Below are positions 36,816 through 52,599 of a DNA stretch of 64,000 bases, one piece after another. The DNA is from Roseibium sp. (GTDB taxonomy: Bacteria; Pseudomonadota; Alphaproteobacteria; Rhizobiales; Stappiaceae), in NCBI GenBank assembly GCA_017643925.1, contig JAEPML010000005.1:124001-188000 (forward strand), written 5' to 3'. Within the stretch, counting starts at the first letter, position 1. The number at the start of each line of letters is the position of its first letter. The notes under the pieces are model-generated. The model was not told where the DNA came from. It saw nothing but the letters and a program-made list of their open reading frames with translations, and did no database searches. Made by a program: the position numbers and the translations under genes.

Positions 36816-38597
36816 TCACGTGGCAACGTGGCTGACTTCCCTGTCCGGTGAGTAGATGTCCAGGATGTTCCAATGGCCCGTGGTGGGGGTTGGATTATTG
36901 ATCATGGGCACGTCCAGCACCGTCGGCTTTCCACTTTCAATGGCGGCATGGAGTGCCGGAAGCAGGTCGTCGGCACTGCCAACCTTTATTCCAACTGCAC
37001 CGTAAGCGCGCGCGATCTGCGCATAGTCCGGACCATTTTCGGGCGCTGCAGCAGTGCCCGGGAACGTCGTGCCGTAGGTCAGTCCGTAATGGGCTTTCTG
37101 AAGTCCGGCAATCGTTCCGAAAGCATTGTTGTTCATCACAAGCCAGATGATGCCGAGTTCGAGTTCAACGGCCGTTGCCAACATTGCCGGGTTCTGCCCG
37201 AAGCCACCGTCGCCGACAAGACTGAGGACCACGCGGTCCGGAGCCGCCAGCTTGGCACCAATCGCACCCGGAGGGCCGAACCCCATCGTCGCAAATCCAC
37301 CCGGTGTCAAGATCGAACCCGGCGTCAGGATGTCGAATTGCTGCCCGACCCCGTTCTTGTTCCAACCCACATCCGTAGTGATGATCGCATCTTCAGGCAG
37401 CGCCTTGCGGGTATCGGCAAGAATGCGCTCCGGCATCATCGGAAAGGCAGACGATGTTGCCATTTCAGTATTGGACGCTTTGAAATTCTTCCGGAAGTCG
37501 GAGATCTTCGAAACGAGACCCGGACGCCTTACGCCATCGGGATACAATTCCCTCGCAACGCGTGTCAGGACGCGCAGAGAAGCCTTTGCATCGGCAACGA
37601 CACCGATTTCGGTCGGGTAGTTACGACCGATTTCAGAGGGTTCAATGTCTATGTGTATGACCTTGGAGCCGGGAATATTGAACGTGTATCCCGGATACCA
37701 GCTGGAGCAATCGGCTTCCTTGAACCTGGTCCCCACGGCGAAGACATAGTCTGCATCGAGACACGTCTGGTTGACCAGACTGGTTCCCCAGAACCCGGTC
37801 ATGCCAAGCACTTGCGGATGATCGTCGCGCAAGGCGCCCTTGCCCATGAGAGAATGGGCAACAGGCAAACCCATGTGTTCGACAAATTCGCGCAGTTCCT
37901 CACTCGCCTTGGCAAGCAGGATACCGCCCCCGACATAGGCGACCGGCTTGTCGGCCTCCGCCAGCCTGGTAACGATCTGCCGGGCCGTTTCATCATCCAG
38001 GGAAGGTTTGACCAGCGCACGCGTGTTCGACGCGATCCGATCGAAACCATCGGAGGTGATGCGCTCGCTGAATATGTCCATGGGAACGTTGACCAGCACA
38101 GGACCGGGCTGACCGCTTTCAGCCAGATGAAAGGCCTTTTCAAGGATCTCGGCCATCAGGTCGGCGCGATCGACCCGCCAGGCTCTCTTGACGAAGGGAC
38201 GATAGATTTCCCACTGCGCAGCGTCAGCGTGAAGGTTCACTTCCTGATGCGGATGCTTGCCGTAATAATGGGTTGGAATATCACCGGCGATGACCACCAT
38301 CGGGATGCAGTCGAGCGCGGCATTGGCGACGCCCGTGGCACAATTGGTGAGCCCCGGTGACAGGTGCGACAGGACAACGGATGCCTTCCCTGTCACACGC
38401 GCATAGGCATCGGCCGCATGGCTGGCTATCTGCTCGTGGCGCACGGTGACAAAGTCGATCGGGCTGTCCGCCAGCGCTGCCAGCACGGCAATGTTGGTGT
38501 GACCGCAAAGACCGAAGACATGCTTTACGTCGCGCCTTTCAAGGTAGTCGACGATGTGCTCTGCAACGGTTTTGGGCTTCTTCAGGATGGCGTCCAT
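36816..38597 (-). CDS. Thiamine pyrophosphate enzyme (acetolactate synthase-like superfamily)
   Basis: A 593-residue three-domain TPP enzyme. The cofactor-activating Glu is E55 in FVTVRHEQIASH, and the TPP-binding GDG...NN motif is VGDGGFGQNP to WLVMNNNAFGT near residues 460-495. Members decarboxylate 2-oxoacids, condense aldehydes or hydrolyse cyclic diketones (IolD). Its order after a TIM-barrel enzyme and an acylating aldehyde dehydrogenase suggests it makes or releases an aldehyde, or opens a carbocyclic dione. It overlaps the upstream aldehyde dehydrogenase stop (TGATG), with GGGAGGTT as binding site. Not a true acetolactate synthase: no small subunit and a catabolic context. Confidence 0.85.
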   Translation of the reverse strand: MDAILKKPKTVAEHIVDYLERRDVKHVFGLCGHTNIAVLAALADSPIDFVTVRHEQIASHAADAYARVTGKASVVLSHLSPGLTNCATGVANAALDCIPMVVIAGDIPTHYYGKHPHQEVNLHADAAQWEIYRPFVKRAWRVDRADLMAEILEKAFHLAESGQPGPVLVNVPMDIFSERITSDGFDRIASNTRALVKPSLDDETARQIVTRLAEADKPVAYVGGGILLAKASEELREFVEHMGLPVAHSLMGKGALRDDHPQVLGMTGFWGTSLVNQTCLDADYVFAVGTRFKEADCSSWYPGYTFNIPGSKVIHIDIEPSEIGRNYPTEIGVVADAKASLRVLTRVARELYPDGVRRPGLVSKISDFRKNFKASNTEMATSSAFPMMPERILADTRKALPEDAIITTDVGWNKNGVGQQFDILTPGSILTPGGFATMGFGPPGAIGAKLAAPDRVVLSLVGDGGFGQNPAMLATAVELELGIIWLVMNNNAFGTIAGLQKAHYGLTYGTTFPGTAAAPENGPDYAQIARAYGAVGIKVGSADDLLPALHAAIESGKPTVLDVPMINNPTPTTGHWNILDIYSPDREVSHVAT

Positions 38598-40006
38598 CAC
38601 GCAACCTCCCGACCGAAAAACTCACCGAACAGCTCCTCGTCAGACGGCTTGTCCTCCGGGATCGGACGGCTGACCCAGGTGTAGTTCATCATGTGTTTGA
38701 GAGTGACATTCTCATTCGTGATGTTGCCGCCCCAGATACCGCAACCCAATGAACTGGTCATCGGCATACCGTTGGTGAAGCTGCCCGCATTGGCCTTCGA
38801 CTGGGGCTGGCGAACCATCATGCGGCTAACCGGCGCAAGACGCGCAAGTCGATCGATATGATCATCATTGTGGCTATAGATGCCACAGGAATGCCCCTTG
38901 CCCCCAACCTCGTAGATCTTGCCCACGGTGTTCAGCGCATCATCGAAATCCTCGAAGTGATACAGCGCCATCAAGGTGGTGAGCTTCTCCTTGGAGAATT
39001 TGTGCTCCGGTCCGATGCACCCCTGGTTTTCAACCATCAGGAACTTGCGATCTTCCGGAATTGCAAACCCGGCGACCTCTGCCGTCTGTTGCGGCTTGCA
39101 GGCAATTGTCGGGAACGTCCGGTTGCCCTTCTCGTCCCACATTGCCTTTTCCAGCAGTGCCTTTTCCTCCTCGTTGCAAAGGTATCCACCTTCGGCTTCG
39201 AGCGCTTTCACCATCTCCCGGTAGATCGAATCCTGGATGATTATGTTGCCGTCTGCCGAACACCCGGACCCGAAATCACTGGTCTTGGACATGCGCGTGT
39301 TTCTTGCAGCGATCTCGATATCGGCGGTCTCGTCGATCACGATGGAGGAGTTGCCCGCCCCCACGCCGAAGGCCGGTTTGCCACTGGAATAAGCTGCCTT
39401 GACCATTGGCTTGCCGCCTGTCGCCAGCGTGAGATCGCAAATTTCCATCAGATGCTGGGTCAGCGGGATCGAAGGATGGGTTACGCACTGGAAGAGGTCT
39501 TCCGGCGCGCCGACATCCCGACAGGCCTGTCTCAGCACATCGGTCATCTGGGAGGTCGTTATCCGGGTTCGCGGATGCGGGGAGAAGATCACCGCGTTCC
39601 GCGCCTTGGCAGCGTAGATGCCGGTCACCGGAGGTGTCAGCGCCGGATTGGTCATCGGAATGAGCGAGGCGATCACACCGGCGGGCTTGGCGTATTTTAC
39701 CAGGCCCCTGGCCTCGTCCACTTCAACGATCCCGGTCGATTTCTGGCGCAATGCATCGCGCAAAACGCCATAGATCTTGAAACGCTTGCCGGGACGCCCT
39801 TCCCTGTCGCCAATGCCGCTTTCGTCGACGCCCTGCTGCGCCAGCCGCGTGAAGGTCTTTTCATTGCCCGCATACCAGCCGATGGCCTGCGCAAGGCGGT
39901 CCAGGTCCTCCTGACTCCAGTCTTCGATCTCGGCCATGGCGGCGCGTGCACGCGCCAGCATTTCATTTGCCAATACGCGGTCTTCTTCAGTGAGCTCTTT
40001 GCCCAT
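38597..40006 (-). CDS. CoA-acylating aldehyde dehydrogenase (sulfoacetaldehyde dehydrogenase/SauS-like)
   Basis: A 469-residue aldehyde dehydrogenase of the acylating branch. PAGVIASLIPMTNPALTPP and the nucleophile region SKTSDFGSGCSADGN (C249) resemble the SauS/AdhE group, which turns an aldehyde into an acyl-CoA with NAD(P)+. GVGAGNSSIVIDETADI is the family Gly-rich loop. The real aldehyde is unknown; the name SauS only reflects resemblance. GAGGA is 7 bases before ATG 40006. Its start overlaps the end of the TIM-barrel gene by 20 bases and its stop overlaps the TPP gene, so the three are co-translated. Confidence 0.85.
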   Translation of the reverse strand: MGKELTEEDRVLANEMLARARAAMAEIEDWSQEDLDRLAQAIGWYAGNEKTFTRLAQQGVDESGIGDREGRPGKRFKIYGVLRDALRQKSTGIVEVDEARGLVKYAKPAGVIASLIPMTNPALTPPVTGIYAAKARNAVIFSPHPRTRITTSQMTDVLRQACRDVGAPEDLFQCVTHPSIPLTQHLMEICDLTLATGGKPMVKAAYSSGKPAFGVGAGNSSIVIDETADIEIAARNTRMSKTSDFGSGCSADGNIIIQDSIYREMVKALEAEGGYLCNEEEKALLEKAMWDEKGNRTFPTIACKPQQTAEVAGFAIPEDRKFLMVENQGCIGPEHKFSKEKLTTLMALYHFEDFDDALNTVGKIYEVGGKGHSCGIYSHNDDHIDRLARLAPVSRMMVRQPQSKANAGSFTNGMPMTSSLGCGIWGGNITNENVTLKHMMNYTWVSRPIPEDKPSDEELFGEFFGREVA

Positions 40007-40901
40007 AACTGTCCTCTTTGGTCTGAAGGGGAACGAGGTCGATCGCGCGGCGCTGTGACCGGGCGGCCCCGAATTTCTGTTTGGCGTGGTGCAGGCAGCG
40101 GCGAGCATGTTCTTCATATCCAAGCTCGGCGATACGTGCGGTGTTGGGAAGTTCAATGGAGTAGTCGACCGGTGGCATGCGCTCGATAATGCCGGCAAAG
40201 TCAATCCAGCCTTCGCCCGGATAAAGCCGTGCATCGCGGGCCAACTGGATCATGCCTTCGCGCGTGTCCGCGATCCCCGGCAGGCAGTCTGAAATGTGAA
40301 GGAAGTGCAGAAGATCGGATGGGACGTGGAGCAACTCGCCTATGTCCACCCGGCTCAGATGCAAATAAAGGGTATCGACGAGGATGCCGCCATTTGTCCT
40401 GTCCGCGGCGCGCACGATATCGAGAGCCTCGTCCAGCGAGCGCAGCCTGGAAAACGAAGGAAACTCGAGGTCGACGGTCAATCCGTAGGGCTCTGCAAGG
40501 TCGCAGGTTTCGCCATAGGTATCGATCAGGAAATTCCGGTCGTCGCGCGTCTGCGTCCAGGCACTCATGATCATGCGCTTGGCGCCCAGTTCGCCGCCAA
40601 GCTCCAACGCGCGTTCGAAACCGCGTGGATCGCAATCTTCCGTGATCCTTGCAAGCTCAATATCAAGGACTTTCAGTCCTGTCGTGGCGAGCGCCGTTTT
40701 CGTCGCCTGGACCTGGGTCTTGCTGATCGGCGACTGGGTAAACTCGCCCGGAATATGCATGGGAAGAAAGCGCGGTGAAACCGCATCATAACCTGCGCGC
40801 GCAGCAACGTAGATCAACTCCGGCACCGTCGCGTTGATCAGCGTCAGATGAGCGAGGGAATAGAGTGGCTGTTCCGGGTCTGCCTGATTTTTCGCGGGCA
40901 T
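39987..40901 (-). CDS. TIM-barrel sugar phosphate isomerase/epimerase or dehydratase-like protein
   Basis: A 304-residue xylose-isomerase-like barrel (AP endonuclease 2 family). All four expected metal ligands are present: E146 in LTVDLEFPSF, D176 in GILVDTLYL, H202 in FLHISDCLPG and E250 in DYSIELPNTA. Relatives include inosose dehydratase (IolE), hydroxypyruvate isomerase and 3-dehydroshikimate dehydratase. It is first in its operon, 44 bases after a copy of the 19-bp palindrome. ACGGAG before ATG 40901 sets the start. In this locus a dehydration or isomerisation of a keto-cyclitol is plausible. Confidence 0.85.
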   Translation of the reverse strand: MPAKNQADPEQPLYSLAHLTLINATVPELIYVAARAGYDAVSPRFLPMHIPGEFTQSPISKTQVQATKTALATTGLKVLDIELARITEDCDPRGFERALELGGELGAKRMIMSAWTQTRDDRNFLIDTYGETCDLAEPYGLTVDLEFPSFSRLRSLDEALDIVRAADRTNGGILVDTLYLHLSRVDIGELLHVPSDLLHFLHISDCLPGIADTREGMIQLARDARLYPGEGWIDFAGIIERMPPVDYSIELPNTARIAELGYEEHARRCLHHAKQKFGAARSQRRAIDLVPLQTKEDSYGQRAH

Positions 40902-41084: not shown

Positions 41085-42272
41085 TCAGATTTTTTGCCAG
41101 CTGGATTCTGTTTCCGCCGAGTTTGCGGAGGCCTCCACGAAGTGAACGCCCTTAGCCCCCTGAGCGACGGTCGGGTAATCAAGCCAGTCCTCGGGAGGCA
41201 TCACGCCGTCTCTGCGTGCCGCGACCGCCATGGCAAATTCCGTATAGAGGTTCGCCCAGGCTTCGATGATCCCTTCCGGGAAGCCCCGTGCCGCACGTAC
41301 GAAACGTTCCGTTCTGGCACTGACACCGTGGCCATGCCCGCGGCTGATGACACGATCCGGCTCGCCAAAGCAATTGAACTTCAGCTGCTCCGACTTTTCC
41401 AGATCCCACTCCAGCCCCCCTTCGCTGCCAAAGACACGCAGACGCAGGCCGCCTCGATTTCCGGGCGCGAGCCGCGTTGCCATCAATGTCCCGGGCACAT
41501 CGTTTTCGAACCGGGTAAACATGAAGACCGTATCTTCAAGAGGTTTTGGAGCACCGCAAACATGCATTTCCGCACGCAGATGGGTCATCTCCAACCCTGA
41601 AACGAAACTGGCGAGGTGCGCCGCATGCGTACCGATGTCACCTGTACAGCTGGTTCTTCCGGACTTGGCCGGGTCCAGACGCCATTTGACATGATCGGCT
41701 TCGGCAACGGCCTCTGGTGTCATCCAGTCCTGCATGAACTCGACATGGATCTGATTGATCCTTCCAATGCCGCCCTGTTTTACAATTTCCCGAGCCTGAC
41801 GGATCATGGGAAAACAGGACATGGTGTACCCGACCGCGAAGACGAGGCCCGTTTCCCTGGCAATCGAGACGAGTTCGTCCGCCTCACCGGGATCATTGGT
41901 CAGCGGCTTGTCACACAACACGTCAATGCCCTTGTCCAGAAAGGCCTTGGCAGCATCGAAATGAACGTGATTGGGCGTCGTGATCATGACTGCATCGACA
42001 CCATCCGGTCGACCGGCTTCGACAGATGCCATCTCGTTGAAGGATGCGTAGCTTCGATCCGGCTGTATGAACCACTCTTCGGCTCGCTGACGTGCCTTTG
42101 TCGGGTCTGAGCTGAGCGCTCCGGCAACGACCTCCCAGCGGTCGGTCAATCGGGCGGCGGTTGCCTGCGTAACAGAGATGCGCCCTCCCCCGACAACCCC
42201 CAACCTCAGCCGACGGCTCTGACGGGGGAACGGTCCGTCGAAGTCCAAACTCTTGGGTAAAATTTTGCTCAT
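41085..42272 (-). CDS. Gfo/Idh/MocA-family oxidoreductase (1)
   Basis: A 395-residue NAD(P)-dependent dehydrogenase. The cofactor loop is LRLGVVGGGRISVTQA, the catalytic Lys is in VLCDKPLTNDPGEAD, and the TCTGDIGTHAAHLASFV stretch carries the active-site Asp and His. Relatives oxidise inositols and sugars. It is the last gene of the long TRAP-led operon. ATG 42272 with GAGGTG upstream is preferred to GTG 42278. Substrate unknown. Confidence 0.9.
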   Translation of the reverse strand: MSKILPKSLDFDGPFPRQSRRLRLGVVGGGRISVTQATAARLTDRWEVVAGALSSDPTKARQRAEEWFIQPDRSYASFNEMASVEAGRPDGVDAVMITTPNHVHFDAAKAFLDKGIDVLCDKPLTNDPGEADELVSIARETGLVFAVGYTMSCFPMIRQAREIVKQGGIGRINQIHVEFMQDWMTPEAVAEADHVKWRLDPAKSGRTSCTGDIGTHAAHLASFVSGLEMTHLRAEMHVCGAPKPLEDTVFMFTRFENDVPGTLMATRLAPGNRGGLRLRVFGSEGGLEWDLEKSEQLKFNCFGEPDRVISRGHGHGVSARTERFVRAARGFPEGIIEAWANLYTEFAMAVAARRDGVMPPEDWLDYPTVAQGAKGVHFVEASANSAETESSWQKI

Positions 42273-42281
42273 GGCCACACC

Positions 42282-42938
42282 TCAAACTGGCACCTGCGCG
42301 CCTTCCGGCAGCATTTCCACTGCCATGAACACACTCGGCGTGATTGTTTCAAACTGGTGCCAGGGGTAGTTGCCGTCCGCATCAAACATGGGCCGGTGCG
42401 TGTGACCTGGGGCCATCACCTCTTCCAGGTAAAGGGTGGAGAGGTCTTTCTCCCGGCACTGTTGCATCTTGCCGAAACCGACGATCTGAGTGTGCACTTC
42501 CCGGAAGCCTGGAACGGGACAAAACGGATGCTCCTTGTGCAAACCGACATTGAGTGGAATGGAGGCAGAGTGGTAAATGGTGAAGCCGATCCTATCCACC
42601 CAGGTCTTTGGCGACATGTAATGTTCGACACCGCGCAATCGCTCTTCACCGCGCACTTCGAAGGCTGAGGGCCATTTGTCCCGGATGCGTGTCATGAGTT
42701 CCACATCGTCATCGTGAGCATCGAACCGGTCGATAATGATCAGCTTCTCGATCTCCGAAATCATGCAACTCTCGAGAATGGTCGACTGCAGGGGCGCAAG
42801 CCTCTGGTCCTCGACAAATACGCAGTCGGTACCGAGATTGAGAACAATTGCGCGCCCTTCAAGCTGAAAGGCCGCCTCGTCGGTCACGTGGCGTAGACCA
42901 AAAAACGGTTCGCCAATTTCAAGGTATTCAACAGGCAT
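42282..42938 (-). CDS. Uncharacterised protein, possibly cupin-like
   Basis: A 218-residue protein I cannot place with confidence. The second half (GLHKEHPFCPVPGFREVHTQ, then EEVMAPGHTHRPMFD, then YPWHQFETITPSVFMAVEM) has His/Glu spacing reminiscent of a cupin metal site (P-G-x-T-H-R). No signal peptide or membrane helix. Its start overlaps the previous gene end by 11 bases, and it sits between two Gfo/Idh dehydrogenase genes. In the myo-inositol pathway the isomerase IolB has a cupin fold, so a ring-opened-sugar isomerase is one idea, unproven. Confidence 0.6.
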   Translation of the reverse strand: MPVEYLEIGEPFFGLRHVTDEAAFQLEGRAIVLNLGTDCVFVEDQRLAPLQSTILESCMISEIEKLIIIDRFDAHDDDVELMTRIRDKWPSAFEVRGEERLRGVEHYMSPKTWVDRIGFTIYHSASIPLNVGLHKEHPFCPVPGFREVHTQIVGFGKMQQCREKDLSTLYLEEVMAPGHTHRPMFDADGNYPWHQFETITPSVFMAVEMLPEGAQVPV

Positions 42939-44127
42939 GGGAGGCCTCGGTCAGATCTGTCTTGAAATTCAGGGGCAAGGGCTCCGGGCGTTCACAGCGG
43001 CTCGTGATCGATTGATAAACGCCTTCCCTCGGCGCCCTTTCGATTGCGGCCATCACCTCGAAGACGTGATAGGCGAGCGCTCCACTGGCCCGCGGCTCAC
43101 GCCCCTCGGAAACGGCAAGAGCCAGATCAAGCAAGCCCAGCCCCCGGCTGTCCTCGTTAAAGCCGTGCCGATTGACCGCCACCTGCCAGGCGTCGCGTCC
43201 GGCCGGCCGGGGCTGGTGTGACCAGCGGGCTGTTTCCCTGGTCCTGAAGAGAACGTCCCCTTGAAAGATGTTCGCGCCATGAACCGGGTCGGGATCCGAA
43301 ATGCAGATGGTCCCGTCCTCGCCATAGATCTCGAAACGCGGCGTCTCACTGTCCCAGATGTCGAAGCTCATGGTCATGTCGCCGACAGCGCCGCTTTCGA
43401 ACTCCAGCAGGCTGAGCGAATGCGTATCCACCTCGACGGGCATCCATTGCCCGTTGCGCGGTCCGTTTTCGATCATGCGCCTGTCAAATGTTCGGCGAGA
43501 CATTCCGGCGACACGCGTGATCGGTCCGAGGCAGAAGATCATGGCTGTCAGATAATATGGCCCCAGATCCAGGAGCGGCCCCCCGCCTCTTGCATAGTAG
43601 AAGTCAGGATTGGGATGATGCCGCTCGGTCCCGTGCGTTCCGACATGCGCAAAGACACCGGTCGGTTTTCCGATCACACCCTCATCGATGAGCGACCGGA
43701 CAGTCTGCCAACGGCCACCGAGGAATGTGTCGGGTGCGTTCCCCACAAGCAGTCCCTTCGAAGCCGCCACGTCCAGAATTCGGGTTCCGTCCGCGAAATC
43801 CGTCACAAAGGGCTTTTCGGAATAGACATGTTTGCCCGCCTCCAGCGCGCGCAAGGAAACGTCCGCGTGCGCAGCTGGAATCGTCAGATTCAACACGCAA
43901 TCGATCTCCGGGTCTGCAAGGATGTCCTGCGGCAGGCAGGCCTGTGGGATCCCGTGCTGCGCCGCCTTTGCGCGGCTTTCCTCAATATCGAGACTCGCAC
44001 AGGCAACCACATCAATTTCATGAAATTTTGCAAGCGTTTTCAGATAGATGTCACTTATTCGGCCACATCCGATCAGGCCGACCCGGAAGGATTTCGCTCT
44101 TTCATCCAGCATTGTCTTCAGGTTCAT
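42928..44127 (-). CDS. Gfo/Idh/MocA-family oxidoreductase (2)
   Basis: A 399-residue dehydrogenase with FRVGLIGCGRISDIYLKTLA as the NAD fold and the catalytic Lys in VYSEKPFVTDFADG. The C-terminal half has GGGPLLDLGPYYLTAM, the active-site region of the family. The start overlaps the citryl-CoA lyase-like gene by 26 bases; ATG 44127 has a poor binding site and ATG 44112 is the alternative. Substrate unknown; likely a step on a polyol or cyclitol. Confidence 0.88.
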   Translation of the reverse strand: MNLKTMLDERAKSFRVGLIGCGRISDIYLKTLAKFHEIDVVACASLDIEESRAKAAQHGIPQACLPQDILADPEIDCVLNLTIPAAHADVSLRALEAGKHVYSEKPFVTDFADGTRILDVAASKGLLVGNAPDTFLGGRWQTVRSLIDEGVIGKPTGVFAHVGTHGTERHHPNPDFYYARGGGPLLDLGPYYLTAMIFCLGPITRVAGMSRRTFDRRMIENGPRNGQWMPVEVDTHSLSLLEFESGAVGDMTMSFDIWDSETPRFEIYGEDGTICISDPDPVHGANIFQGDVLFRTRETARWSHQPRPAGRDAWQVAVNRHGFNEDSRGLGLLDLALAVSEGREPRASGALAYHVFEVMAAIERAPREGVYQSITSRCERPEPLPLNFKTDLTEASHAC

Positions 44128-44914
44128 ATTGGGGGAGGAAACGAGGCGGCATAGGCCCCTTGTTGCGCCCGCCCTGGCCCATTTGTTCCCAGGCATGGGC
44201 GAGAATCCCGACAGAGCGCGACAGGCAGAACAATCCTCTGGAAAGCGGGGCGGGAAATCCCAGTTCGCAGAAGATTACAGCCGTTGCACCGTCAATGTTC
44301 ATTGCAATCGGTACGCCGCGCGACCGTCCCAGTTCAGCCTGTACCGCTACTCCTATGTCGGCGAAGCGTCCAGAGACGGTTCCTTCAATTGCCGCGTCGC
44401 GGACGAGTTTCATCAACCGGGGGGCACGAGGATCGGTCGGCTTGTGAAACCGATGACCAAAACCGGAGACGATCTTGCCGTATTCAGAGCGCCACTGAAC
44501 CAGGCCGTCAACAACTGCCTCCTCAAGCGGCGCACCGGCGTCCATCCGATCTGCGATATCGTAGTAGAGCTCGGCGCATTGTTCGCCGGCTCCCCCGTGA
44601 ACGTCGCCAAGCATGTTGATACCTGTCGCCATTACATTGTTGAGGCCAAGCCCACAGGTAGCCGCCATTCTGCCGGCAGCAATCGAGGGGGCCTGGGGTC
44701 CATGATCGACGCCCGCCACTAGGGCCGCTTCGAAGAGCCTCGCTTCCTCTTCGCTGGGCGTGCCTCCACGAACCATGAGCCAGATCATCTGCGGAAAGCT
44801 GACTGTCCCGATCAGCTCCTCGATCGGTGTTCCGCGGAAAACGATCTTCCCGGGCTCCATATCGATGATGGAGGTTCGCCACCAGTGCCGGATTGCCTCG
44901 CCGTCCGTGCTCAT
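44102..44914 (-). CDS. Short citrate-synthase-fold protein (citryl-CoA lyase-like)
   Basis: At 270 residues this is much shorter than citrate synthase (370-430), but it keeps the whole catalytic set: H106 in GDVHGGAGE, H154 in GFGHRFHKP and D208 in AMNIDGATA. That matches the small citryl-CoA lyase or CCL-domain type. Such proteins cleave or form C-C bonds next to CoA thioesters. The ATG overlaps the AroE-like stop (ATGA). In the pathway it may make the final retro-Claisen-type cut; the substrate is inferred, not seen. Confidence 0.82.
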   Translation of the reverse strand: MSTDGEAIRHWWRTSIIDMEPGKIVFRGTPIEELIGTVSFPQMIWLMVRGGTPSEEEARLFEAALVAGVDHGPQAPSIAAGRMAATCGLGLNNVMATGINMLGDVHGGAGEQCAELYYDIADRMDAGAPLEEAVVDGLVQWRSEYGKIVSGFGHRFHKPTDPRAPRLMKLVRDAAIEGTVSGRFADIGVAVQAELGRSRGVPIAMNIDGATAVIFCELGFPAPLSRGLFCLSRSVGILAHAWEQMGQGGRNKGPMPPRFLPQYEPEDNAG

Positions 44915-45783
44915 GCAGCTGTCTCCTTGTTCTCGTTGCGATCCTGCTGCAAGAGACCTTCGAGAGTGGCCTTCATGCGGTCCACGTCCGGTTCATGACC
45001 GGTCAGGAGCCGAAAGGCTTCCACCGCCTGCCAAAGTGCCATTTTCGTGCCGTCCATGACACGGCAGCCATGGGCTTCTGCAAGCTTCAAAAAAGCCGTT
45101 TTGCGCGGGAAATAGACAATATCGGCGACCCAGGTCGCGCGGCTCAAAAGCCAGGGGTCGAAGGCCATGCCCGGATGCGATGCCATACCAAGCGGCGTGC
45201 AATTTACCGCCCCGGAGACCTGGTCGAAGGGAACACCGTCAATGCTTTCGGCTGCAAGGGTTTGAAGCCAGGGACGCAGCATGTTCAATCTTGTTTTCAG
45301 ACCCTTGGCACGCTCCAAGACAGGATCGATGATGAACAGTGTGTCGACTCCCAGGTCTGCGAGTGCGAGCGCAACGGAAGCACCTGCGCCGCCTGCACCA
45401 CACAAAACGACCGTGTTCCCTGCAATCGAGGCAATTTCACTTTGTATTGCTCTGCGAAAACCACCGTAATCCGTGTTGAAGCCAATACGCTCACCGGCCT
45501 GCAAAACCACGGTATTTGCCGTCAGGAGCTCATTGGCAGGTCCCTCAAGCCGATGAAGAAGTTCGACAACAGTGGACTTGTGAGGATGCGTTACATTCAA
45601 GCCCACAAGACCATCCGCTTCAGCATCGGAAAGGATCTGTGCGAGATCAGCCCGTGACAGTTTCCTTCCTCCGGTGTCGATCCGCCCGTACCGGTAGTCA
45701 AGCCCGAGCGCTGCTCCTTCGAGTTCGTGCTGCGCCGGTGTCAGGGAGGGACCTATATGATCTCCAACAAGAGCAGCTTTCAT
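44911..45783 (-). CDS. Shikimate/quinate dehydrogenase-like protein (AroE/YdiB family)
   Basis: A 290-residue dehydrogenase with the complete family motif set: GPSLTPAQHE (substrate hydroxyls), GLNVTHPHKS with catalytic K69, GFNTDYGGF with D105, GAGGAGASVALAL for NAD(P), NCTPLGMAS and the C-terminal MALWQAVEAF. Biosynthetic AroE is normally elsewhere; its place between a QsuB-like gene and a citryl-CoA lyase in a TRAP operon points to a catabolic quinate- or shikimate-type dehydrogenase. The start overlaps the previous stop in ATGA. Confidence 0.9.
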   Translation of the reverse strand: MKAALVGDHIGPSLTPAQHELEGAALGLDYRYGRIDTGGRKLSRADLAQILSDAEADGLVGLNVTHPHKSTVVELLHRLEGPANELLTANTVVLQAGERIGFNTDYGGFRRAIQSEIASIAGNTVVLCGAGGAGASVALALADLGVDTLFIIDPVLERAKGLKTRLNMLRPWLQTLAAESIDGVPFDQVSGAVNCTPLGMASHPGMAFDPWLLSRATWVADIVYFPRKTAFLKLAEAHGCRVMDGTKMALWQAVEAFRLLTGHEPDVDRMKATLEGLLQQDRNENKETAA

Positions 45784-47666
45784 CGCAGTGGCATCCCTTC
45801 GGCACGTTGAAGGCGCATCTGGGCAGCCAGGCGGATCGGCGCGTTCGACGCGCCATATCCCTGATACCCGGAGCGTCTTTCAACGATCTCAAAGAAGAAG
45901 CCGTTGAAGATCGGTTGGCTGTAAATCTGGAAATACTCCGTACCGCCTTCGCGGTCGTAGAGGATATTGGCCGAACGCATGGTCTCGACAAGTTCCATGT
46001 CCAGACCAAAACGAACCCTGAGGTCGTCATAGTAGTTTGCGGGCATTTCCAACCTTGGGAACCCGGCTGCATCCAGGATGTTCGACGTTTCGAAAATATC
46101 GTCAGTTAGAAAAGCAATATGCTGAACCCCGGCGCCGAACTGATCAGCAAGAAACGAGCCGGCAAAAGTCCTGTGCCCCGCCGCTCCGTTCAGGTTCAGA
46201 CGCATTTCCCCTTCCGGGGTTTCCAGCGCTTGCGAGCGAACGACGCCGGCCGGGTCGGCGACATCGACGATCTCGCTTTTCCGCATGTCGAAAGTCGTCA
46301 TGTAGTAAAGCGCCCAGCTGCGCATTTCGTTGCTCGCCATGGTCTGGGCAACATGGTCGACCCGGCGCAGTCCGGCCGGGCGAGTTGCAGCTGTTTTCTT
46401 CACGGGTTCGAACTCGATGTCCCAGACCCGGTGAAGATCGGATTTCTCGTCAATGAAATGAACCACGGATCCCCCCACGCCACGAATGGCGGGAATTTCG
46501 AGTTCACCAGACCCTACCGCCTGCGAGAAGGGTTCGGTGCCGAGTTCGGTCGCTCTCGCGACGGTCTGACTGGCATCGTCAACGCGCATGCCCATGTCGC
46601 AGACGCAGGGGCCATGACTGAGAAAAGCGGAATGAGCAAAGCCCGTCTGGTCGGAATTGATGACGATGTTGATCGCCCCCTGGCGCCACAGTTCCACAGA
46701 CTTGGAAACATGTCGCCGCTCCATCCTGAAGCATAGCGATTGCAGGATGTCAGCAAGTTGCCGATGGGTCCTTTCATCCGTGGCAAATTCGATGAATTCA
46801 AAGCCTCGAACATGCCCGCGATCAGGCAAGGCCGGAGACCCAAGGCCAAGGCCGGGTTCGGTGCCCGAAACATCGTCCAGCAGCGAAGCCAGCGCGCGAT
46901 AGCCGTCGCGTGTGATCTGCCCTGCCCTGACCTCCAGATCCTGTTCGTTCAAACGCGCGATGGACCAGGGGCCGCGGTACCCGCTGCGCGCGAGAACTTT
47001 CACGAAGCCGGAAAGGTTCAACCGACCGAGTCCCGGAAGAAGTCCGAAATGACGTTTCAGCATCCGGATATCGGTGTCCAGCCGGGGGGCGTCGGACAGC
47101 TGCACATGAAAGAGTGCGGACAGGTCCAGATCACGCAAATCCGCAGGTCGACGACCGCCGGCAAGCGAAAAGAAACTGTTGAGCGCGAGGCCGAAACTGT
47201 CGCACCCGACCGCCTCGACCAGAGCACTGGCCTGAAGGTCATGTGTCGTAGCCTGCGCCCAGGGAAGCGCGAGATAGGCAATCTTCAATCCACGCCTTTG
47301 TGCCCGGTCGGCCGCGTTGCTGAGGTCTTCAACGATCCTGTCCTGCTCGATCCCTGTCTGCATGGTTCTGGCGGAACCGACCAGAAGCATTTTCGTTCCC
47401 AGGGCTTCCATGAGATCGAACTTGGCTTCCAGCCGGTCGAAGGCGACTTGCTGGTCAAGCTGGCCCTCCAGGTCATGGAACGGTTTGAGCAACGCAACCT
47501 TCAAGCCGAGCCCGGAAACAATATCCCGGATTTCCCTGGCAGTTCCGTGAAAGCCGGTGAAATCCGGATCATGGAGTTCCACACTTTCGAAACCGGCCGC
47601 CGCGATCGCCTTCAGTTTGGCCGGCAAATCGCCCGGAATGGATGTTGTCGAGATGCAAAGGGACAT
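45780..47666 (-). CDS. QsuB-like fusion: TIM-barrel dehydratase domain plus HPPD-like dioxygenase domain
   Basis: A 628-residue two-domain protein in the layout of QsuB/QuiC1 (3-dehydroshikimate dehydratase). The N-terminal barrel (1-275) has family phrases such as PGDLPAKLKAIAAAGFESVE and FHVQLSDAP. However, where I recall Glu, Asp, Gln and Glu as metal ligands of QuiC1, this protein shows L132 (YLALPW), N163 (LNSFF), Q189 and A237 (SIARLNE). The C-terminal 4-hydroxyphenylpyruvate-dioxygenase-like domain keeps its metal triad: H438 in RVDHVAQ, H516 in VQHIAF and E593 in FFEIVER. So the dehydratase half may be dead and the dioxygenase half active. It overlaps dctM by one base. Confidence 0.85.
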   Translation of the reverse strand: MSLCISTTSIPGDLPAKLKAIAAAGFESVELHDPDFTGFHGTAREIRDIVSGLGLKVALLKPFHDLEGQLDQQVAFDRLEAKFDLMEALGTKMLLVGSARTMQTGIEQDRIVEDLSNAADRAQRRGLKIAYLALPWAQATTHDLQASALVEAVGCDSFGLALNSFFSLAGGRRPADLRDLDLSALFHVQLSDAPRLDTDIRMLKRHFGLLPGLGRLNLSGFVKVLARSGYRGPWSIARLNEQDLEVRAGQITRDGYRALASLLDDVSGTEPGLGLGSPALPDRGHVRGFEFIEFATDERTHRQLADILQSLCFRMERRHVSKSVELWRQGAINIVINSDQTGFAHSAFLSHGPCVCDMGMRVDDASQTVARATELGTEPFSQAVGSGELEIPAIRGVGGSVVHFIDEKSDLHRVWDIEFEPVKKTAATRPAGLRRVDHVAQTMASNEMRSWALYYMTTFDMRKSEIVDVADPAGVVRSQALETPEGEMRLNLNGAAGHRTFAGSFLADQFGAGVQHIAFLTDDIFETSNILDAAGFPRLEMPANYYDDLRVRFGLDMELVETMRSANILYDREGGTEYFQIYSQPIFNGFFFEIVERRSGYQGYGASNAPIRLAAQMRLQRAEGMPLR

Positions 47667-48961
47667 CAGCCTACATATCCAAGCAGCCTGGGCAGAAAGA
47701 GCACGATTTCCGGGAAAAGGATCATCAGGATCAAGGCTCCGATGAGTACCGCCAGGAATGCCCAGACCTCCGAGATGATCTCGCGCAGCGGAATGCCGGT
47801 AACAGCATTGATGACGAAGAGCAGGATGCCATAGGGCGGCGTGATCAGACCGATCATCGAATTGACAACAACAAGCACGCCGAAGTGAACCAGGTCGATG
47901 CCAAGATCCTTACAGGTCGGGATGAACAGTGGAACGATGACCAGAATGATCGTGGTCGCGTCGAGCACGCATCCCAGCAGCAGAACAAGAATGTTCACAC
48001 CGATCAGAAACACCAGCGGATGAACGTCGATACCTTGAAGGAACTCCGACATCAGGCCCGGGATGTTTTCCGAAATGACCACGAAGTTGAGGATCAATGC
48101 ACCCCCGATGACGACACCGACAGCTGCCGACGAGCGCGCGCTTTCAACAAAGATCCGGTAAAGGCCGTGCAGGGACAGGGCTCTATAGAAGAGTCCGGCT
48201 AGCAACAGGGCGTAAAGCGCGGCAACCGCGGCGGCTTCTGTCGGGGTCGTAACACCGCCGTAAATGCCGAAGAGCAGGATCACGGGCATCAGAAGCGCCG
48301 GAAACGCATTGGCAGTGTAACGGGGCAATTCACGCAGCGGCACAGGTTCTTCAAGTGCAAAGCCGCGTTTGGTCGCCAGATAATAATTCATCGCCATGAG
48401 CACGGCGCCCATAACCAGCCCGGGCAGGATGCCTGCCAGGAACAACGCCCCGATCGAGGCATTGGACACGAGCGCGTAAAGGACCATCGGAATGGAGGGC
48501 GGAATGATGGGGCCGATCGTGGCTGAAGCCGCCGTGATGGCTGCCGCATACCCTCTCGAGTACCGGCCATCCTTTGTCATCATTCCAATGATGATCTTGC
48601 CGATCCCGGCCGCATCGGCGACCGCAGATCCGGACATGCCGGAGAAAATGAGAGAGGCAACCACGTTCACATGACCGAGACCGCCCTTGAACCGGCCAAC
48701 TGCGGCAACGCAGAAACTGAGCAGACGCTCGGAGATGGTGCCTGCGTTCATGATGTTGGCGGCTGCAATGAACAGCGGCACTGCAAGCAGGACAAAACTC
48801 TTGTAAAGACCCTGCAGGATCTTCTCGCCTGTCAGGGCGAGATCAAGACCGGCAGCCCCCAGATACACCAGCGATGCCAGGATGATGGAGTATCCGATCG
48901 GCGTTCCGATCCCGGCCAGTCCGAAAAGGGTGATCAGGCAAAGGGCAAATTCCATGCTCAT
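47666..48961 (-). CDS. TRAP transporter large permease subunit (DctM type)
   Basis: A 431-residue membrane protein with about 12 helices. LFGLAGIGTPIGYSIILAS near the start and GMSGSAVADAAGIGKIIIGMM are typical of the ion-transport subunit of TRAP transporters, as is LGCVLDATTIILVIVPLF. It drives uptake of an organic acid with a sodium gradient. Its ATG overlaps the dctQ-type stop (ATGA). Confidence 0.95.
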   Translation of the reverse strand: MSMEFALCLITLFGLAGIGTPIGYSIILASLVYLGAAGLDLALTGEKILQGLYKSFVLLAVPLFIAAANIMNAGTISERLLSFCVAAVGRFKGGLGHVNVVASLIFSGMSGSAVADAAGIGKIIIGMMTKDGRYSRGYAAAITAASATIGPIIPPSIPMVLYALVSNASIGALFLAGILPGLVMGAVLMAMNYYLATKRGFALEEPVPLRELPRYTANAFPALLMPVILLFGIYGGVTTPTEAAAVAALYALLLAGLFYRALSLHGLYRIFVESARSSAAVGVVIGGALILNFVVISENIPGLMSEFLQGIDVHPLVFLIGVNILVLLLGCVLDATTIILVIVPLFIPTCKDLGIDLVHFGVLVVVNSMIGLITPPYGILLFVINAVTGIPLREIISEVWAFLAVLIGALILMILFPEIVLFLPRLLGYVG

Positions 48962-49518
48962 ACCGCTTCATCTCCCTGCTGAATGGAGGGCGGTTCGTGC
49001 TCGTGCCCGGGAATGTCGTGTTCGCCACTTGGGGGGCCATGGCGCAGAATGTCGATGAAGCGCCAGGAATACCGAATGATGATTGCGATCATGAAGATGA
49101 GGTAGATCGAGAAAATCGTGCGCAATGGGATCTTCTTGCCGGTCAGCGGGTTTTCCACCGTGGTGGTCTTCCGGATTTTCATCCAGTCGATGTAGTCCCA
49201 TGTCGGCAGGAAGGACCAGATCATTCCGGCGACGATGGACGCCGCAGCGATCAGAGCCAGAACTTTCTGGCCTCGACGTGGAACCGACAGGTAGAGAATA
49301 TCGAAGGTGACGTGGTCCTTCTCATGCACGATGAAGGCGTTGCCGAAAAACACGATCCAGACCCACAGGATGAGGCAGAGCTCCAGCGTCCAACCAAAAG
49401 GTGTCACCAGGACATATCTGGAGAATATCTGAAGCAGGAAGGTGAAGAACATCGCCGCCAACATGGCGGCGGCGATGCCTTCGGCCCCGCAGGCGAACCA
49501 GGTAGAAATGCGTTTCAT
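48958..49518 (-). CDS. TRAP transporter small permease subunit (DctQ type)
   Basis: A 186-residue protein with four membrane helices (for example AAMLAAMFFTFLLQIFSRYV and LELCLILWVWIVFFGNAFIV). The VHEKDHVTFDILY region is typical of DctQ. The cytoplasmic tail is charged and His-rich (GEHDIPGHEHEPPS). It pairs with the DctM-type subunit. AGGAG lies before the start, 30 bases after the binding-protein gene. Confidence 0.92.
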   Translation of the reverse strand: MKRISTWFACGAEGIAAAMLAAMFFTFLLQIFSRYVLVTPFGWTLELCLILWVWIVFFGNAFIVHEKDHVTFDILYLSVPRRGQKVLALIAAASIVAGMIWSFLPTWDYIDWMKIRKTTTVENPLTGKKIPLRTIFSIYLIFMIAIIIRYSWRFIDILRHGPPSGEHDIPGHEHEPPSIQQGDEAV

Positions 49519-49548: not shown

Positions 49549-50559
49549 TTATTTGCCGAGCGCGTTGATCTTATCCAGAACACCCTCCGGCCATGTCGCT
49601 GCGAATTCGCTTTCAAGATACATGGACTGAACCTGATTGCGGAATGCGTCCAGGTCCGGCTCGTAGATCGACATGCCCTGCTCTTCGAGGAAGGCGACGA
49701 GCTCCTGTTCTTTTTGCAATTGCGCCTTGCGGCCGGCCTCTGCAGCCGCGTCTGCCGCCTTTTGAACAGTCGCCTGTTGTTCCGGTGTCAGGTTGTTGAA
49801 GACCTCGGCATTCATGGCGATGTAATTCAGGTCAACGAGGTGAGATGTCAGGACGATCTGGTTGGTGACCTCGTAGAATTTCGCGTCGACCACGGTCGGC
49901 AGCGGGTTGTCCTGGCCATCTACAGCCCCTGCTGAAAGAGCGGTGTAAACTTCAGCGAACGCCATTGGCGTGGGGGATGCGCCCAGCGCCTTGCCAAGGA
50001 ACTGCCAGGCGTCTGTGCCGGGCATGCGCAGGTTCACGCCGGCAAGGTCAGCCGGTGTTTTCACGGTCAGTTCGTCCTTTGACTGGCGCAAATTGACCTG
50101 ACGGCGGCCGAGATACATGACCGACAGGAGCTTGACGCCCAGCTCTTCCTCAGCCTTTTGCTTGAACGGGTCCATCAGCGAGTCGTTGAAGACGGCCACC
50201 TGATGATCGGCGTCCTGGTGGACGTAGCCGGCCGTGAAGATGGAGAATTCGGGGAAGAACTGTGCGAGTTCCTGTGCGGAGGCAATGGACATTTCCAAGT
50301 TGCCACGGCTGATCGCGTCCAGCTCCGTGCCCTGCGCGAATATGGTGCCGTTATAGCTCGGAACATAGTCGGCGAATTCGGCCACCATGGGTGCAAAGAC
50401 ATCGCGCATGGCGACGGAACGCTGGTCCGTTTCCGAGCCGGACGTGGCCAGGCGCAGCTGCACCTTGTCGTCTGCCAGACCTGCGACCGAACTTCCTGCC
50501 AGAACACCGGCGGCGACAAATGCCGAAAGCGCTGCACGGCGTGTGAATTTAGTCATCAT
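49549..50559 (-). CDS. TRAP transporter substrate-binding protein (DctP type)
   Basis: A 336-residue periplasmic protein. The signal peptide (RRAALSAFVAAGVLAGSSVAG) starts with paired Arg. DctP signatures include YVPSYNGTIFAQGTELDAIS, NLRMPGTDAWQFLGKALGASPTP and the binding Arg in GVNLRMPG; MAFAEVYTALSAGAVDGQDN is the most typical stretch. Family members bind C4-dicarboxylates, uronates, quinate-like and other organic acids. It heads a nine-gene operon and has the palindrome 80 bases upstream. AGGAGGAAGAG precedes ATG-ATG. Confidence 0.95.
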   Translation of the reverse strand: MMTKFTRRAALSAFVAAGVLAGSSVAGLADDKVQLRLATSGSETDQRSVAMRDVFAPMVAEFADYVPSYNGTIFAQGTELDAISRGNLEMSIASAQELAQFFPEFSIFTAGYVHQDADHQVAVFNDSLMDPFKQKAEEELGVKLLSVMYLGRRQVNLRQSKDELTVKTPADLAGVNLRMPGTDAWQFLGKALGASPTPMAFAEVYTALSAGAVDGQDNPLPTVVDAKFYEVTNQIVLTSHLVDLNYIAMNAEVFNNLTPEQQATVQKAADAAAEAGRKAQLQKEQELVAFLEEQGMSIYEPDLDAFRNQVQSMYLESEFAATWPEGVLDKINALGK

Positions 50560-50638: not shown

Positions 50639-50657
50639 AAAAATATCTGATATTTTT
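50639..50657. promoter_or_regulatory. 19-bp palindromic operator, copy b
   Basis: Identical to copy a: AAAAATATCTGATATTTTT. It begins directly next to the stop of Gfo/Idh (3) and lies 80 bases before dctP, in an AT-rich promoter stretch, so it should control the TRAP-led operon. Confidence 0.8.
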
Positions 50658-51743
50658 CTAGACCACGGTCCTGTAGGTCCCAAGAGCCGAAGCCGTGATG
50701 TCCTGGATCTCCAGACGTACACGCTGTTGCGCGGAAACCTGTATGGCCTCGATCACCTGCAGTGTTCTCAGGCCTTCCGATCCCGAAACAAGCGGCGGTG
50801 CCTTACGAAGGATCACGTCCCTGAAGTGGGCAACCTGATTGACAAGTGGGTCCGAGGCGTCGCGCGTCAGGGTCGTCGCTGACAGTGGCGTCCACCAGTC
50901 CTGCTGCCTGTCCTGATGGGTCCAGACGCGAAGATCAGGCACAGAAAGTGAGCCTTCCGATCCTCCAATCAGGTAGCAACTCTCCGGTATCGGGGGATAA
51001 TTCGGGTTTTCACGGGACGTGAATTCCCAACTCCAAGGCGCAACCACACTGTCCGAAACCGAAATGGTACCGATCGCTCCATTCTTGAACTCGAGGAGTG
51101 CACTGGCGACGTCCTCGTTCTCGAACCCCCTGGCCGAGGGCGCTGCGACTGCCTGAACGGCTGAAACCTCTCCGCATAAGTACCGGATCAGGTCTATGTC
51201 ATGGACCAGGTTCACGGAGACTGGCCCGGCGCCTTCACGTTTGCGCCAGGAAGCTGCGTCAAAGTAGTGGTCCGGCTTGTAAAACCAGCACGTTCCCTGA
51301 ACCGCACGAACGTCTCCGATCAGGCCGTCATCTATCGCCTGCCTTGCCTTGCGGATCAGGGGATTGTGACGACGATGGTGACCCACGAGCAGAGGGATGT
51401 CCCGGTTGTTCGCCATCTGGACAAGGGCGTGGGCTTCGAGTGCGGAAACGCCAATGGGCTTTTCGACGAGAACGGGGCATTTGTGCTCGATGCAGGTCAT
51501 GGCCTGCTCGACATGCAACAGGGTCGGAGTTGCCAGGATCACACCGTCAGGGCCGACGCTTTCCAACATGGCGCCAATTGTCTCGAAGCACGGCACGCCC
51601 ATGCCGATTGCGGCGTCCTGGCCGCTTTCGTTGGGATCAACGACCGCAACCAGCTCCACATCGGGAACAAGAGCGACCGCTTCCGCATGTCGTTTCCCCA
51701 CCAGTCCAAGACCGACAATGGCGAGTCGTAGTTTTGAATGCAC
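50658..51743 (-). CDS. Gfo/Idh/MocA-family oxidoreductase (3)
   Basis: A 361-residue dehydrogenase: LRLAIVGLGLVGKRHAEAVA as NAD loop, catalytic Lys in VLVEKPIGVSALEAH, active-site GPVSVNLVHDIDLIRYLCG. Relatives act on inositols, quinate-like rings or sugars. It is divergent from the GntR regulator, with copy c of the palindrome between. The transcript could read through into dctP, but copy b provides a separate promoter. Confidence 0.9.
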   Translation of the reverse strand: MHSKLRLAIVGLGLVGKRHAEAVALVPDVELVAVVDPNESGQDAAIGMGVPCFETIGAMLESVGPDGVILATPTLLHVEQAMTCIEHKCPVLVEKPIGVSALEAHALVQMANNRDIPLLVGHHRRHNPLIRKARQAIDDGLIGDVRAVQGTCWFYKPDHYFDAASWRKREGAGPVSVNLVHDIDLIRYLCGEVSAVQAVAAPSARGFENEDVASALLEFKNGAIGTISVSDSVVAPWSWEFTSRENPNYPPIPESCYLIGGSEGSLSVPDLRVWTHQDRQQDWWTPLSATTLTRDASDPLVNQVAHFRDVILRKAPPLVSGSEGLRTLQVIEAIQVSAQQRVRLEIQDITASALGTYRTVV

Positions 51744-51838
51744 AAAAGGCTCCTATGCAACTGGACACTTCACTGCGGCCCGTTACCAGCCGTCGATTGG
51801 TGCTTTCGGCGATGTTAGGAGCAATCCACAAGATTTGC

Positions 51839-51857
51839 AATAATATCTGATATTTTT
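51839..51857. promoter_or_regulatory. Palindromic operator, copy c (one mismatch)
   Basis: AATAATATCTGATATTTTT; the right arm and the core are identical to copies a and b, and the left arm has one change. A -35-like TTGACA at 51862-51867 follows 4 bases later on the plus strand, so binding would affect the GntR promoter (autoregulation) as well as the divergent Gfo/Idh gene. Confidence 0.75.
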
Positions 51858-51942
51858 ATTTTTGACATAAATTATGGAAAATTGCCCTACAAATTCAAAT
51901 GTGATAAATGCATGATAATTTCCATTTCATCGGCCAAAAGTG

Positions 51943-52599
51943 ATGCAGCAGACACCAGCGACAATCGGATCCAGCACGTACCAGAAGATCAAGCGCGATA
52001 TCATTTTCGGCGAGCTGGAACCCGGTTCGAAGCTGAAGCTGGAAGGGCTCAAGCAGCGTTATTCCACGAGCCCGTCCACCTTGCGCGAAACCCTCAGTCG
52101 TCTGGCAAGCGAAGGTTTCGTGGAAGCACCGGAGCAACGCGGCTTTCGGGTCACTCCTGTCTCGAAGGAAGATCTGATCGAAATTGGCGGCCTTCGGGTT
52201 CTGCTGGAATGTCACGCCCTGAAACTGTCTGTCGAGAACGGGGACACGGACTGGGAAGGCAACCTCGTTGCCGCACATCACAAGCTGCATCTCATGGAGC
52301 AGAAGATGCTGACCGGTGACGAGAGCGAAAAGGAAACCTGGAAACGCTACGACTGGGAGTTTCACCTCGCCATGATCCAGGCCTGCAACAATACCAACCT
52401 GCTCTCGCTGCACGCCATCATGTACGACAAATATCTGCGCTATCAGATGCTCGTCCTGACCTACCGGGGAGAAGTTGCGGTCAAGGAACACCAGGACATG
52501 TTCGAAGCTGCCCTGGCCCGCGACACCAAGGCCGCCTGTAAAATGCTCGAAAGCCACATCAACAACGGCGTCGAACACACGCTTGCCGCGATGGCGTGA
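51943..52599 (+). CDS. GntR-family regulator with FCD domain
   Basis: A 218-residue regulator. The winged helix is STYQKIKRDIIFGELEPGSK to LKQRYSTSPSTLRETLSRLA with EAPEQRGFRVTPV at the wing. The helical FCD domain occupies the rest, with WEFHLAMIQACNN and an Arg/His set that often binds a metal and an organic acid. FCD regulators control catabolism of acids such as uronates, lactate or inositol-derived acids. It is probably the repressor that binds the three palindromes. GTG 51940 is an alternative start. Confidence 0.92.
   Translation: MQQTPATIGSSTYQKIKRDIIFGELEPGSKLKLEGLKQRYSTSPSTLRETLSRLASEGFVEAPEQRGFRVTPVSKEDLIEIGGLRVLLECHALKLSVENGDTDWEGNLVAAHHKLHLMEQKMLTGDESEKETWKRYDWEFHLAMIQACNNTNLLSLHAIMYDKYLRYQMLVLTYRGEVAVKEHQDMFEAALARDTKAACKMLESHINNGVEHTLAAMA

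Follow-up and report, generated by a model that had tools for sequence, protein, structure and literature searches.

A Roseibium operon that may degrade a quinate-type acid without aromatising its ring

What compound is broken down by an operon that combines the enzyme classes of myo-inositol (iol) catabolism with relatives of quinate and shikimate enzymes? The operon in question lies in a 64,000-nucleotide stretch of Roseibium sp. DNA (contig JAEPML010000005.1), the whole of which is called the window here. It consists of 13 co-directional genes on the minus strand (51743 to 36816) together with a divergent GntR gene. In order, the 13 genes specify a Gfo/Idh oxidoreductase (IDH1), a tripartite ATP-independent periplasmic (TRAP) importer (DctP, DctQ, DctM), a QsuB-like protein, an AroE-like dehydrogenase, a citryl-coenzyme A (CoA)-lyase-like protein (CCL), a second Gfo/Idh enzyme (IDH2), a cupin, a third Gfo/Idh enzyme (IDH3), a triosephosphate isomerase (TIM) barrel, a CoA-acylating aldehyde dehydrogenase (ALDH) and a thiamine pyrophosphate (TPP) enzyme. 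Several neighbouring genes abut or overlap, and the widest internal gap, between IDH3 and the TIM-barrel gene, is 183 bases. The genome is 5.8 Mb in size, and its closest named relatives in the searches were Roseibium/Labrenzia. An orthologue of the ALDH (E up to 1e-100) was found in 7 of the 87 genomes of a family sample, every one in the window's genus, so the operon is an accessory trait.

An earlier, sequence-only reading of this DNA had proposed an iol-like plan for a carboxylated ring of the quinate or shikimate type, with TPP-dependent opening, capture as acyl-CoA and C-C cleavage. The enzyme classes that it named are all present as open frames, including the three Gfo/Idh genes (Table 1), and the general plan is backed by conserved neighbourhoods in other genomes, while the identity of the substrate is still a matter of inference. 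The explanation favoured here, which falls slightly short of an even chance, is that the operon breaks down a quinate-type acid whose ring never becomes aromatic, by way of 3-dehydroquinate, a 3,4-dione, homocitrate semialdehyde and homocitryl-CoA, to acetyl-CoA and 2-oxoglutarate. We infer its substrate, reactions and products from the genes, their neighbourhoods, the residue losses and an exchange of lyases.

In this scheme the TRAP importer would take up the acid, and IDH1 (or the AroE-like enzyme) would oxidise it to 3-dehydroquinate. Both IolE and dehydroshikimate dehydratase dehydrate alpha,beta-dihydroxyketones; 3-dehydroquinate is such a compound, and the TIM barrel would remove its 5-hydroxyl to leave the 3,4-dione, which would be unable to aromatise because C1 still carries its hydroxyl and carboxyl groups. 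Acting by hydrolysis, like IolD and cyclohexane-1,2-dione hydrolase on their own substrates, the TPP enzyme would then cut between C3 and C4, giving homocitrate semialdehyde. This would be converted by the ALDH to homocitryl-CoA, and by CCL to acetyl-CoA and 2-oxoglutarate. The likely order is thus TIM barrel, TPP enzyme, ALDH and finally cleavage of the citryl-CoA-lyase type; ring opening precedes cleavage, as had been proposed, but capture by CoA probably comes before the C-C cleavage and not after it. IDH2, the cupin and IDH3 (the trio) would be accessory: through an oxidation, a dehydration or isomerisation, and a reduction, they would make another ring acid available to the route at this level.

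Searching 84,980 species genomes for the cupin yielded 51 loci, largely from marine taxa by title. IDH3 accompanies the cupin in all 51 (50 in a stricter recount, L013 being cut by a contig end) and IDH2 does so in 50, the remaining locus (L058) being cut. CCL is present in 22 of the 51; 15 of these also hold the TIM-barrel, ALDH and TPP genes, six are cut at the locus end and one (L049) is an exception. CCL and the other three genes thus occur together in 15 of the 16 uncut CCL loci, which is not a chance arrangement, and the TIM-barrel, ALDH and TPP genes (the module) are missing from all 29 loci that lack CCL; the 27% relative of the TPP enzyme in one of these (L042) belongs to another subfamily. 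In a class sample of 385 genomes the TPP enzyme was found in six (78-100% identity), all of which have the CCL, TIM-barrel and ALDH genes as well and three of which have the cupin. The module was found without a cupin match in G154, G252 and G346, and in G310 the trio and the module lie on different contigs. The trio is thus a separable add-on: the earlier view of a single pathway set that includes it did not hold, and a role as an essential part was rejected, as half of the TPP-positive genomes in the class sample lack a cupin match.

Among the genomes without a cupin match, the cluster of G154 (L129) reads IDH1, TRAP, QsuB-like, AroE, CCL, an additional frame, TIM, ALDH and TPP, and that of G346 (L131) reads IDH1, TRAP, QsuB-like, CCL, TIM, ALDH and TPP, with neither AroE nor the trio in the stretch read. 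Apart from the QsuB-like gene, every enzyme gene of L131 has exactly one part in the proposed scheme. In G252 the GntR, IDH1, TRAP, QsuB-like and CCL genes are on one contig, and the TIM-barrel, ALDH and TPP genes, with an HpcH-type aldolase gene, are on another.

The best clue to the chemistry is the exchange of CCL for 3-hydroxy-3-methylglutaryl (HMG)-CoA lyase beside the TIM-barrel, ALDH and TPP genes. It was seen in Tropicimonas and Aliiruegeria genomes, reached via L043 and L032, where the orders are TRAP, HMG-CoA lyase, TIM, ALDH, TPP, QsuB (L117) and AroE, HMG-CoA lyase, TIM, ALDH, TPP, QsuB (L114). Both HMG-CoA lyases pass NF004283 (305.8 and 303.1 bits, cut-off 246), neither genome gave a CCL match at E up to 1e-40, and the trio lies elsewhere (L043, L032). 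Citryl-CoA lyase and HMG-CoA lyase have unrelated folds, yet each splits a branched beta-hydroxyacyl-CoA with release of acetyl-CoA; the exchange therefore suggests that the ALDH product should be a tertiary beta-hydroxyacyl-CoA. Carbon 1 of quinate, with its hydroxyl, its carboxyl and two CH2 neighbours, supplies this pattern. CCL resembles citryl-CoA lyase (6hxp) in passing NF004864, and its H106, H154 and D208 align with 6hxp and with citrate synthase 1o7x; we take them to be the catalytic His/His/Asp of the citrate-synthase site. It would differ from both citryl-CoA and HMG-CoA lyases in its proposed substrate, homocitryl-CoA. On plasmids, 278 records matched CCL; the two examined both carry a CoA-transferase gene, one with an annotated tricarboxylate importer and the other with an anion symporter.

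The link to 3-dehydroquinate comes from Vibrionaceae. The genes of Grimontia indica (L120) and Enterovibrio (L121) run GntR, IDH1, type II dehydroquinase and QsuB, with DctQ and DctM divergent. Their IDH1 is related to that of the window at 44-45%, the dehydroquinase of L120 passes NF003806 (218.7 bits, cut-off 171), and both QsuB proteins retain all four dehydratase ligands. As IDH1 stands there ahead of a dehydroquinase and an intact dehydroshikimate dehydratase, 3-dehydroquinate is very probably what it makes. On the Enterovibrio contig, genes for protocatechuate 4,5-cleavage start about 4.6 kb beyond QsuB; in Grimontia indica they are on another contig (L053), divergent from DctP and the trio. 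In L053 the oxalomesaconate tautomerase (516.5 of 440 bits), the 4-carboxy-4-hydroxy-2-oxoadipate aldolase (379.7 of 179) and the extradiol dioxygenase beta chain (417.9 of 317) all pass their models, and the naming of LigC, LigJ and LigI depends on the appearance of the sequences and on matches that are weaker, from other families or missing. A dehydroquinase relative adjoins QsuB in all five Vibrionaceae genomes. In one of them, Enterovibrio coralii (G474; L106, L108), the QsuB-like and dehydroquinase matches are each split into two pieces.

The window's own QsuB-like gene is indeed there, as a fusion, but the metal site of its dehydratase part has been lost. The active-site list of QuiC1/QsuB includes Glu134, Asp165, Gln191 and Glu239 (PMC7442255). 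At the corresponding positions the window protein has L132, N163, Q189 and A237. The four QuiC1/QsuB residues are presumably the metal-binding set, and judged by their loss the dehydratase barrel is dead; an active dehydroshikimate dehydratase in the QsuB-like protein of the window was rejected on this ground. The protein reaches 490.6 of the 1200 bits of NF042435, a cut-off under which three relatives with an intact site also fall. Of 44 QsuB-like frames aligned, four (L025, L035, L039 and the second of the two L015 frames) fall outside the site, and L013 and the other L015 frame cover three of its four positions. At least two of the covered ligands are lost in all 23 assessed copies from CCL clusters, the window included, and all four are kept in all 17 copies whose stretch, as far as read, has no CCL. 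With several rows almost identical and some stretches short, these are not 40 independent events. In L129 and L130 the letters depend on the alignment, neither alignment giving Glu in the first or the fourth position. The triad H438, H516 and E593, which we take to be a metal site of the 4-hydroxyphenylpyruvate dioxygenase (HPPD) type, is kept wherever covered, with one exception (L035). Activity of Corynebacterium glutamicum QsuB on protocatechuate was not detected (PMC7442255).

Against the IolG model TIGR04380 (cut-off 355), IDH1, IDH2 and IDH3 score 143.4, 74.4 and 66.1 bits, and against the IolD model TIGR04377 (cut-off 715) the TPP enzyme scores 230.5; the families expected from the sequence-only reading are present, but none of these proteins belongs to IolG or IolD by its curated cut-off. 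For the TPP enzyme IolD is ruled out, and two other genes of the same genome pass that model (876.3 and 810.7 bits). Its relatives include cyclohexane-1,2-dione hydrolase 2pgn (178.4 bits), with acetolactate synthases scoring higher (up to 255.7). The TIM barrel matches only the QuiC (32.1 bits) and IolO (27.9 bits) models in NCBIfam; its nearest known relatives are IolI, the best match in the PDB, and QuiC1, and the predicted E/D/H/E ligands were found as E146, D176, H202 and E250, identical in six other aligned orthologues. A sulfonate pathway was rejected, as the ALDH reaches 439.5 of the 600 bits of the SauS model NF047625 and the TPP enzyme 286.3 of 620 for sulfoacetaldehyde acetyltransferase. 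The AroE-like protein passes NF009201 and fails the quinate/shikimate equivalog NF010631 (216.7 of 515), and its closest solved structure is quinate/shikimate dehydrogenase 3jyo. No dehydroquinase gene is among those of the operon; one type II gene lies elsewhere in the genome.

The proposed route shares with the iol pathway Gfo/Idh oxidation, a TIM-barrel step, TPP-dependent ring opening and an acyl-CoA-forming aldehyde dehydrogenase. Unlike that pathway, it would act on a carboxylated ring and end with a lyase of the citryl-CoA type, and no IolB, IolC or IolJ was among the operon's matches shown. With the qsu/qui/qut route for quinate and shikimate it shares an AroE-like enzyme, a QsuB-like protein and, probably, 3-dehydroquinate as an intermediate, but the operon has lost the dehydratase site and has no dehydroquinase, its first dehydrogenase would be a Gfo/Idh enzyme, and the ring would be opened while still alicyclic. 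The TPP enzyme belongs to the same superfamily as 2pgn and may likewise open a 1,2-dione by hydrolysis, the difference being the hydroxyl and carboxyl groups of its proposed substrate. What is new is the use to which known enzyme families and an iol-like order would be put.

Several observations weigh against this scheme. An HpcH/HpaI-type aldolase gene directly follows the TPP gene in four loci (L010, L022, L128, L129) and lies near the cluster in three more (L023, L047, L051), making seven distinct loci; the two aldolases scanned reach 291.0 and 299.3 of the 368.8 bits of their best model. The scheme does not need this enzyme, which suggests a 4-hydroxy-2-oxo acid among the products and would suit 4-hydroxy-2-oxoglutarate. 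Locus L049 has CCL and the trio, and no TPP match was found in its 2.2 Mb bin (E up to 1e-100). The ALDH scores below the SauS cut-off, and homocitrate semialdehyde is a putative substrate. An unlikely alternative accommodates the aldolase: the 5-hydroxyl would be kept, the dione would arise by a second oxidation, the lyase would yield 4-hydroxy-2-oxoglutarate for the aldolase to split into pyruvate and glyoxylate, and the TIM barrel would be an isomerase like IolI. The aldolase's place behind the TPP gene, the match of the TIM barrel to IolI and the several dehydrogenases of the window all speak for it; the L131 stretch as read, however, offers no obvious second dehydrogenase, and among the loci compared the aldolase was found in only those seven, two of which (L023, L047) lack the CCL module, and not in the window.

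The ligand of the importer raises a different doubt. DctP is 74% identical over 282 aligned residues to 4pf6 (Roseobacter denitrificans RD1_0742), whose ligand we take to be 3-deoxy-D-manno-octulosonic acid (KDO) and not quinate, the entry title being cut off before the ligand name; many of the best solved relatives after 4pf6 are sialic-acid-binding SiaP proteins. The predicted model of DctP is moderate (mean pLDDT 70.3) and served only to find relatives. It is therefore conceivable, if rather improbable, that the operon naturally acts on a pyranose acid, for instance KDO or another 3-deoxy-ulosonic acid of that kind, and that the likeness to quinate enzymes is merely ancestral, a view with which the ketopyranose dehydratase/isomerase fold matched by the cupin and the LacI-type regulator adjoining the trio in L053 would agree. 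Against it stand the dehydroquinase, intact dehydroshikimate dehydratase and protocatechuate genes of the Vibrionaceae genomes and an AroE-like protein above its cut-off; moreover, KDO has the C(OH)(COOH)-CH2 ring motif of quinate and may be a stand-in ligand. Points on the QsuB-like protein also weigh against the favoured scheme. The 23 and 17 copies compared are not independent, and those that lost ligands may be one lineage; both HMG-CoA-lyase clusters carry an intact QsuB, so the loss goes with CCL and not with the module, and two routes can coexist; and the dead-barrel protein, absent from L027, is kept in most copies without clear reason. Since the window's genome also has genes for protocatechuate 3,4-dioxygenase and dehydroquinase, and the TIM barrel is distantly related to QuiC, the operon could be an ordinary quinate/shikimate-to-protocatechuate operon in which the TIM barrel has taken over dehydroshikimate dehydration from the dead QsuB barrel and the remaining genes are unrelated. 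This we consider improbable: the TIM-barrel, ALDH and TPP genes stand together, always with CCL, in all 15 of the 51 loci that are uncut inside the module, outside those loci each genome that has them also carries CCL or HMG-CoA lyase, and the HMG-CoA-lyase clusters hold an intact QsuB and the TIM barrel both. Breakdown of mycosporine or gadusol was considered and not favoured, as the AroE-like enzyme, dehydroquinase and dehydroshikimate dehydratase are signs of a carboxylated ring.

To our knowledge, all quinate routes run via protocatechuate and an oxygen-dependent ring dioxygenase. The cluster predicts instead an oxygen-independent ring opening that would deliver acetyl-CoA and 2-oxoglutarate, and thereby a likely new role for generically annotated Gfo/Idh, TIM-barrel, TPP and citryl-CoA-lyase-like proteins. 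Because of the natural swaps (CCL for HMG-CoA lyase, and the dead dehydratase of CCL clusters), the enzymes of the scheme can be tested one at a time in Roseibium and marine roseobacters. In the open-licence literature, an absence that counts for little, no paper was found that joins quinate with homocitryl-CoA or citryl-CoA lyase, describes a TRAP solute-binding protein for quinate or shikimate, or treats RD1_0742 or a KDO TRAP transporter of Roseobacter denitrificans; the papers listed for 4pf6 dealt with chemistry or materials and not with the protein, and nothing relevant to quinate catabolism in marine Roseobacter was seen by title and start of abstract.

The cupin at the centre of the trio had been placed, as a possible cupin, in the IolB class, which was rejected as unsupported, no Pfam or NCBIfam match being found up to E 0.001; its profile found no match among PDB sequences at E up to 10. 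Its predicted fold resembles that of Phanerochaete aldos-2-ulose dehydratase/isomerase (4a7z) at 15% identity, the match covering only residues 457-734 of a solved chain of 881; it comes from VIA-align, as the Foldseek list gave low TM-scores and was left unused. It is a long shot that the trio forms a carbocycle, with IDH2 and IDH3 oxidising and re-reducing, and the cupin dehydrating, a phosphate-free 3-deoxy-ulosonic acid (KDO type, C7 homologue) that closes to 3-dehydroquinate. If true, the trio would perform dehydroquinate-synthase chemistry spread over three proteins, catabolically, feeding ring opening to acetyl-CoA and 2-oxoglutarate.

Table 1. Genes of the operon and its divergent regulator, in window coordinates.
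Feature	Position	Strand	Basis or remark
GntR-family regulator	51940..52599	+	family by sequence appearance; orthologues adjoin the operon in many loci
IDH1, Gfo/Idh oxidoreductase, proposed quinate-type 3-dehydrogenase	50658..51743	-	Pfam GFO_IDH_MocA; function inferred
DctP, TRAP solute-binding protein	49549..50559	-	closest solved structure 4pf6
DctQ, TRAP small permease	48958..49518	-	name by position and appearance; orthologues keep the order
DctM, TRAP large permease	47666..48961	-	name by position and appearance; orthologues keep the order
QsuB/QuiC-like fusion, apparently dead dehydratase barrel and HPPD-like triad	45780..47666	-	residue alignment
AroE-like quinate/shikimate dehydrogenase	44911..45783	-	NF009201, 298.6 bits (cut-off 235)
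CCL, citryl-CoA-lyase-like; proposed homocitryl-CoA lyase	44102..44914	-	NF004864, 430.3 bits (cut-off 261)
IDH2, Gfo/Idh oxidoreductase (trio)	42928..44127	-	start codon chosen; longest frame starts at 44196
Cupin (trio)	42282..42938	-	predicted fold like the cupin part of fungal aldos-2-ulose dehydratase/isomerase
IDH3, Gfo/Idh oxidoreductase (trio)	41085..42278	-	Gfo/Idh family
TIM barrel, intact E/D/H/E site; proposed to dehydrate 3-dehydroquinate to the 3,4-dione	39987..40901	-	AP_endonuc_2
ALDH, CoA-acylating aldehyde dehydrogenase, SauS-like	38597..40006	-	NF047625, 439.5 bits (cut-off 600)
TPP enzyme; proposed ring-opening 1,2-dione hydrolase	36816..38600	-	three TPP-enzyme domains (Pfam)

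The trio also has other neighbours. In L016 (7071-14132) it is flanked by genes resembling hydroxyisobutyrate dehydrogenase, another TIM barrel, a fatty-acid desaturase and PanB, and a PanB-like frame similar to that of L016 occurs in L026 (3322-4179); perhaps these belong to another pathway that uses the trio. A second IDH3-like gene, 48% identical to the window's, follows the trio in L034 and L032. On plasmids of Shinella, Thalassospira, Paracoccus and Rhizobium etli (L079, L080, L063, L078) a distant relative of the cupin is found in other iol-like sets, which mix a TPP enzyme (33% identical to the window's in L063), HisD-like and Gfo/Idh proteins, a TIM barrel and a sugar ATP-binding cassette (ABC) importer, and are possibly a second undescribed pathway for a ring acid or cyclitol.

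Convergent with the operon, the window carries sugar ABC importer genes and a ROK regulator (32210-36724), apparently of the fructose type by eye, and a similar importer and regulator adjoin the trio in L046. Near the operon, at 53944-56388, lies a gene for a large protein resembling a methyl-accepting chemotaxis protein.

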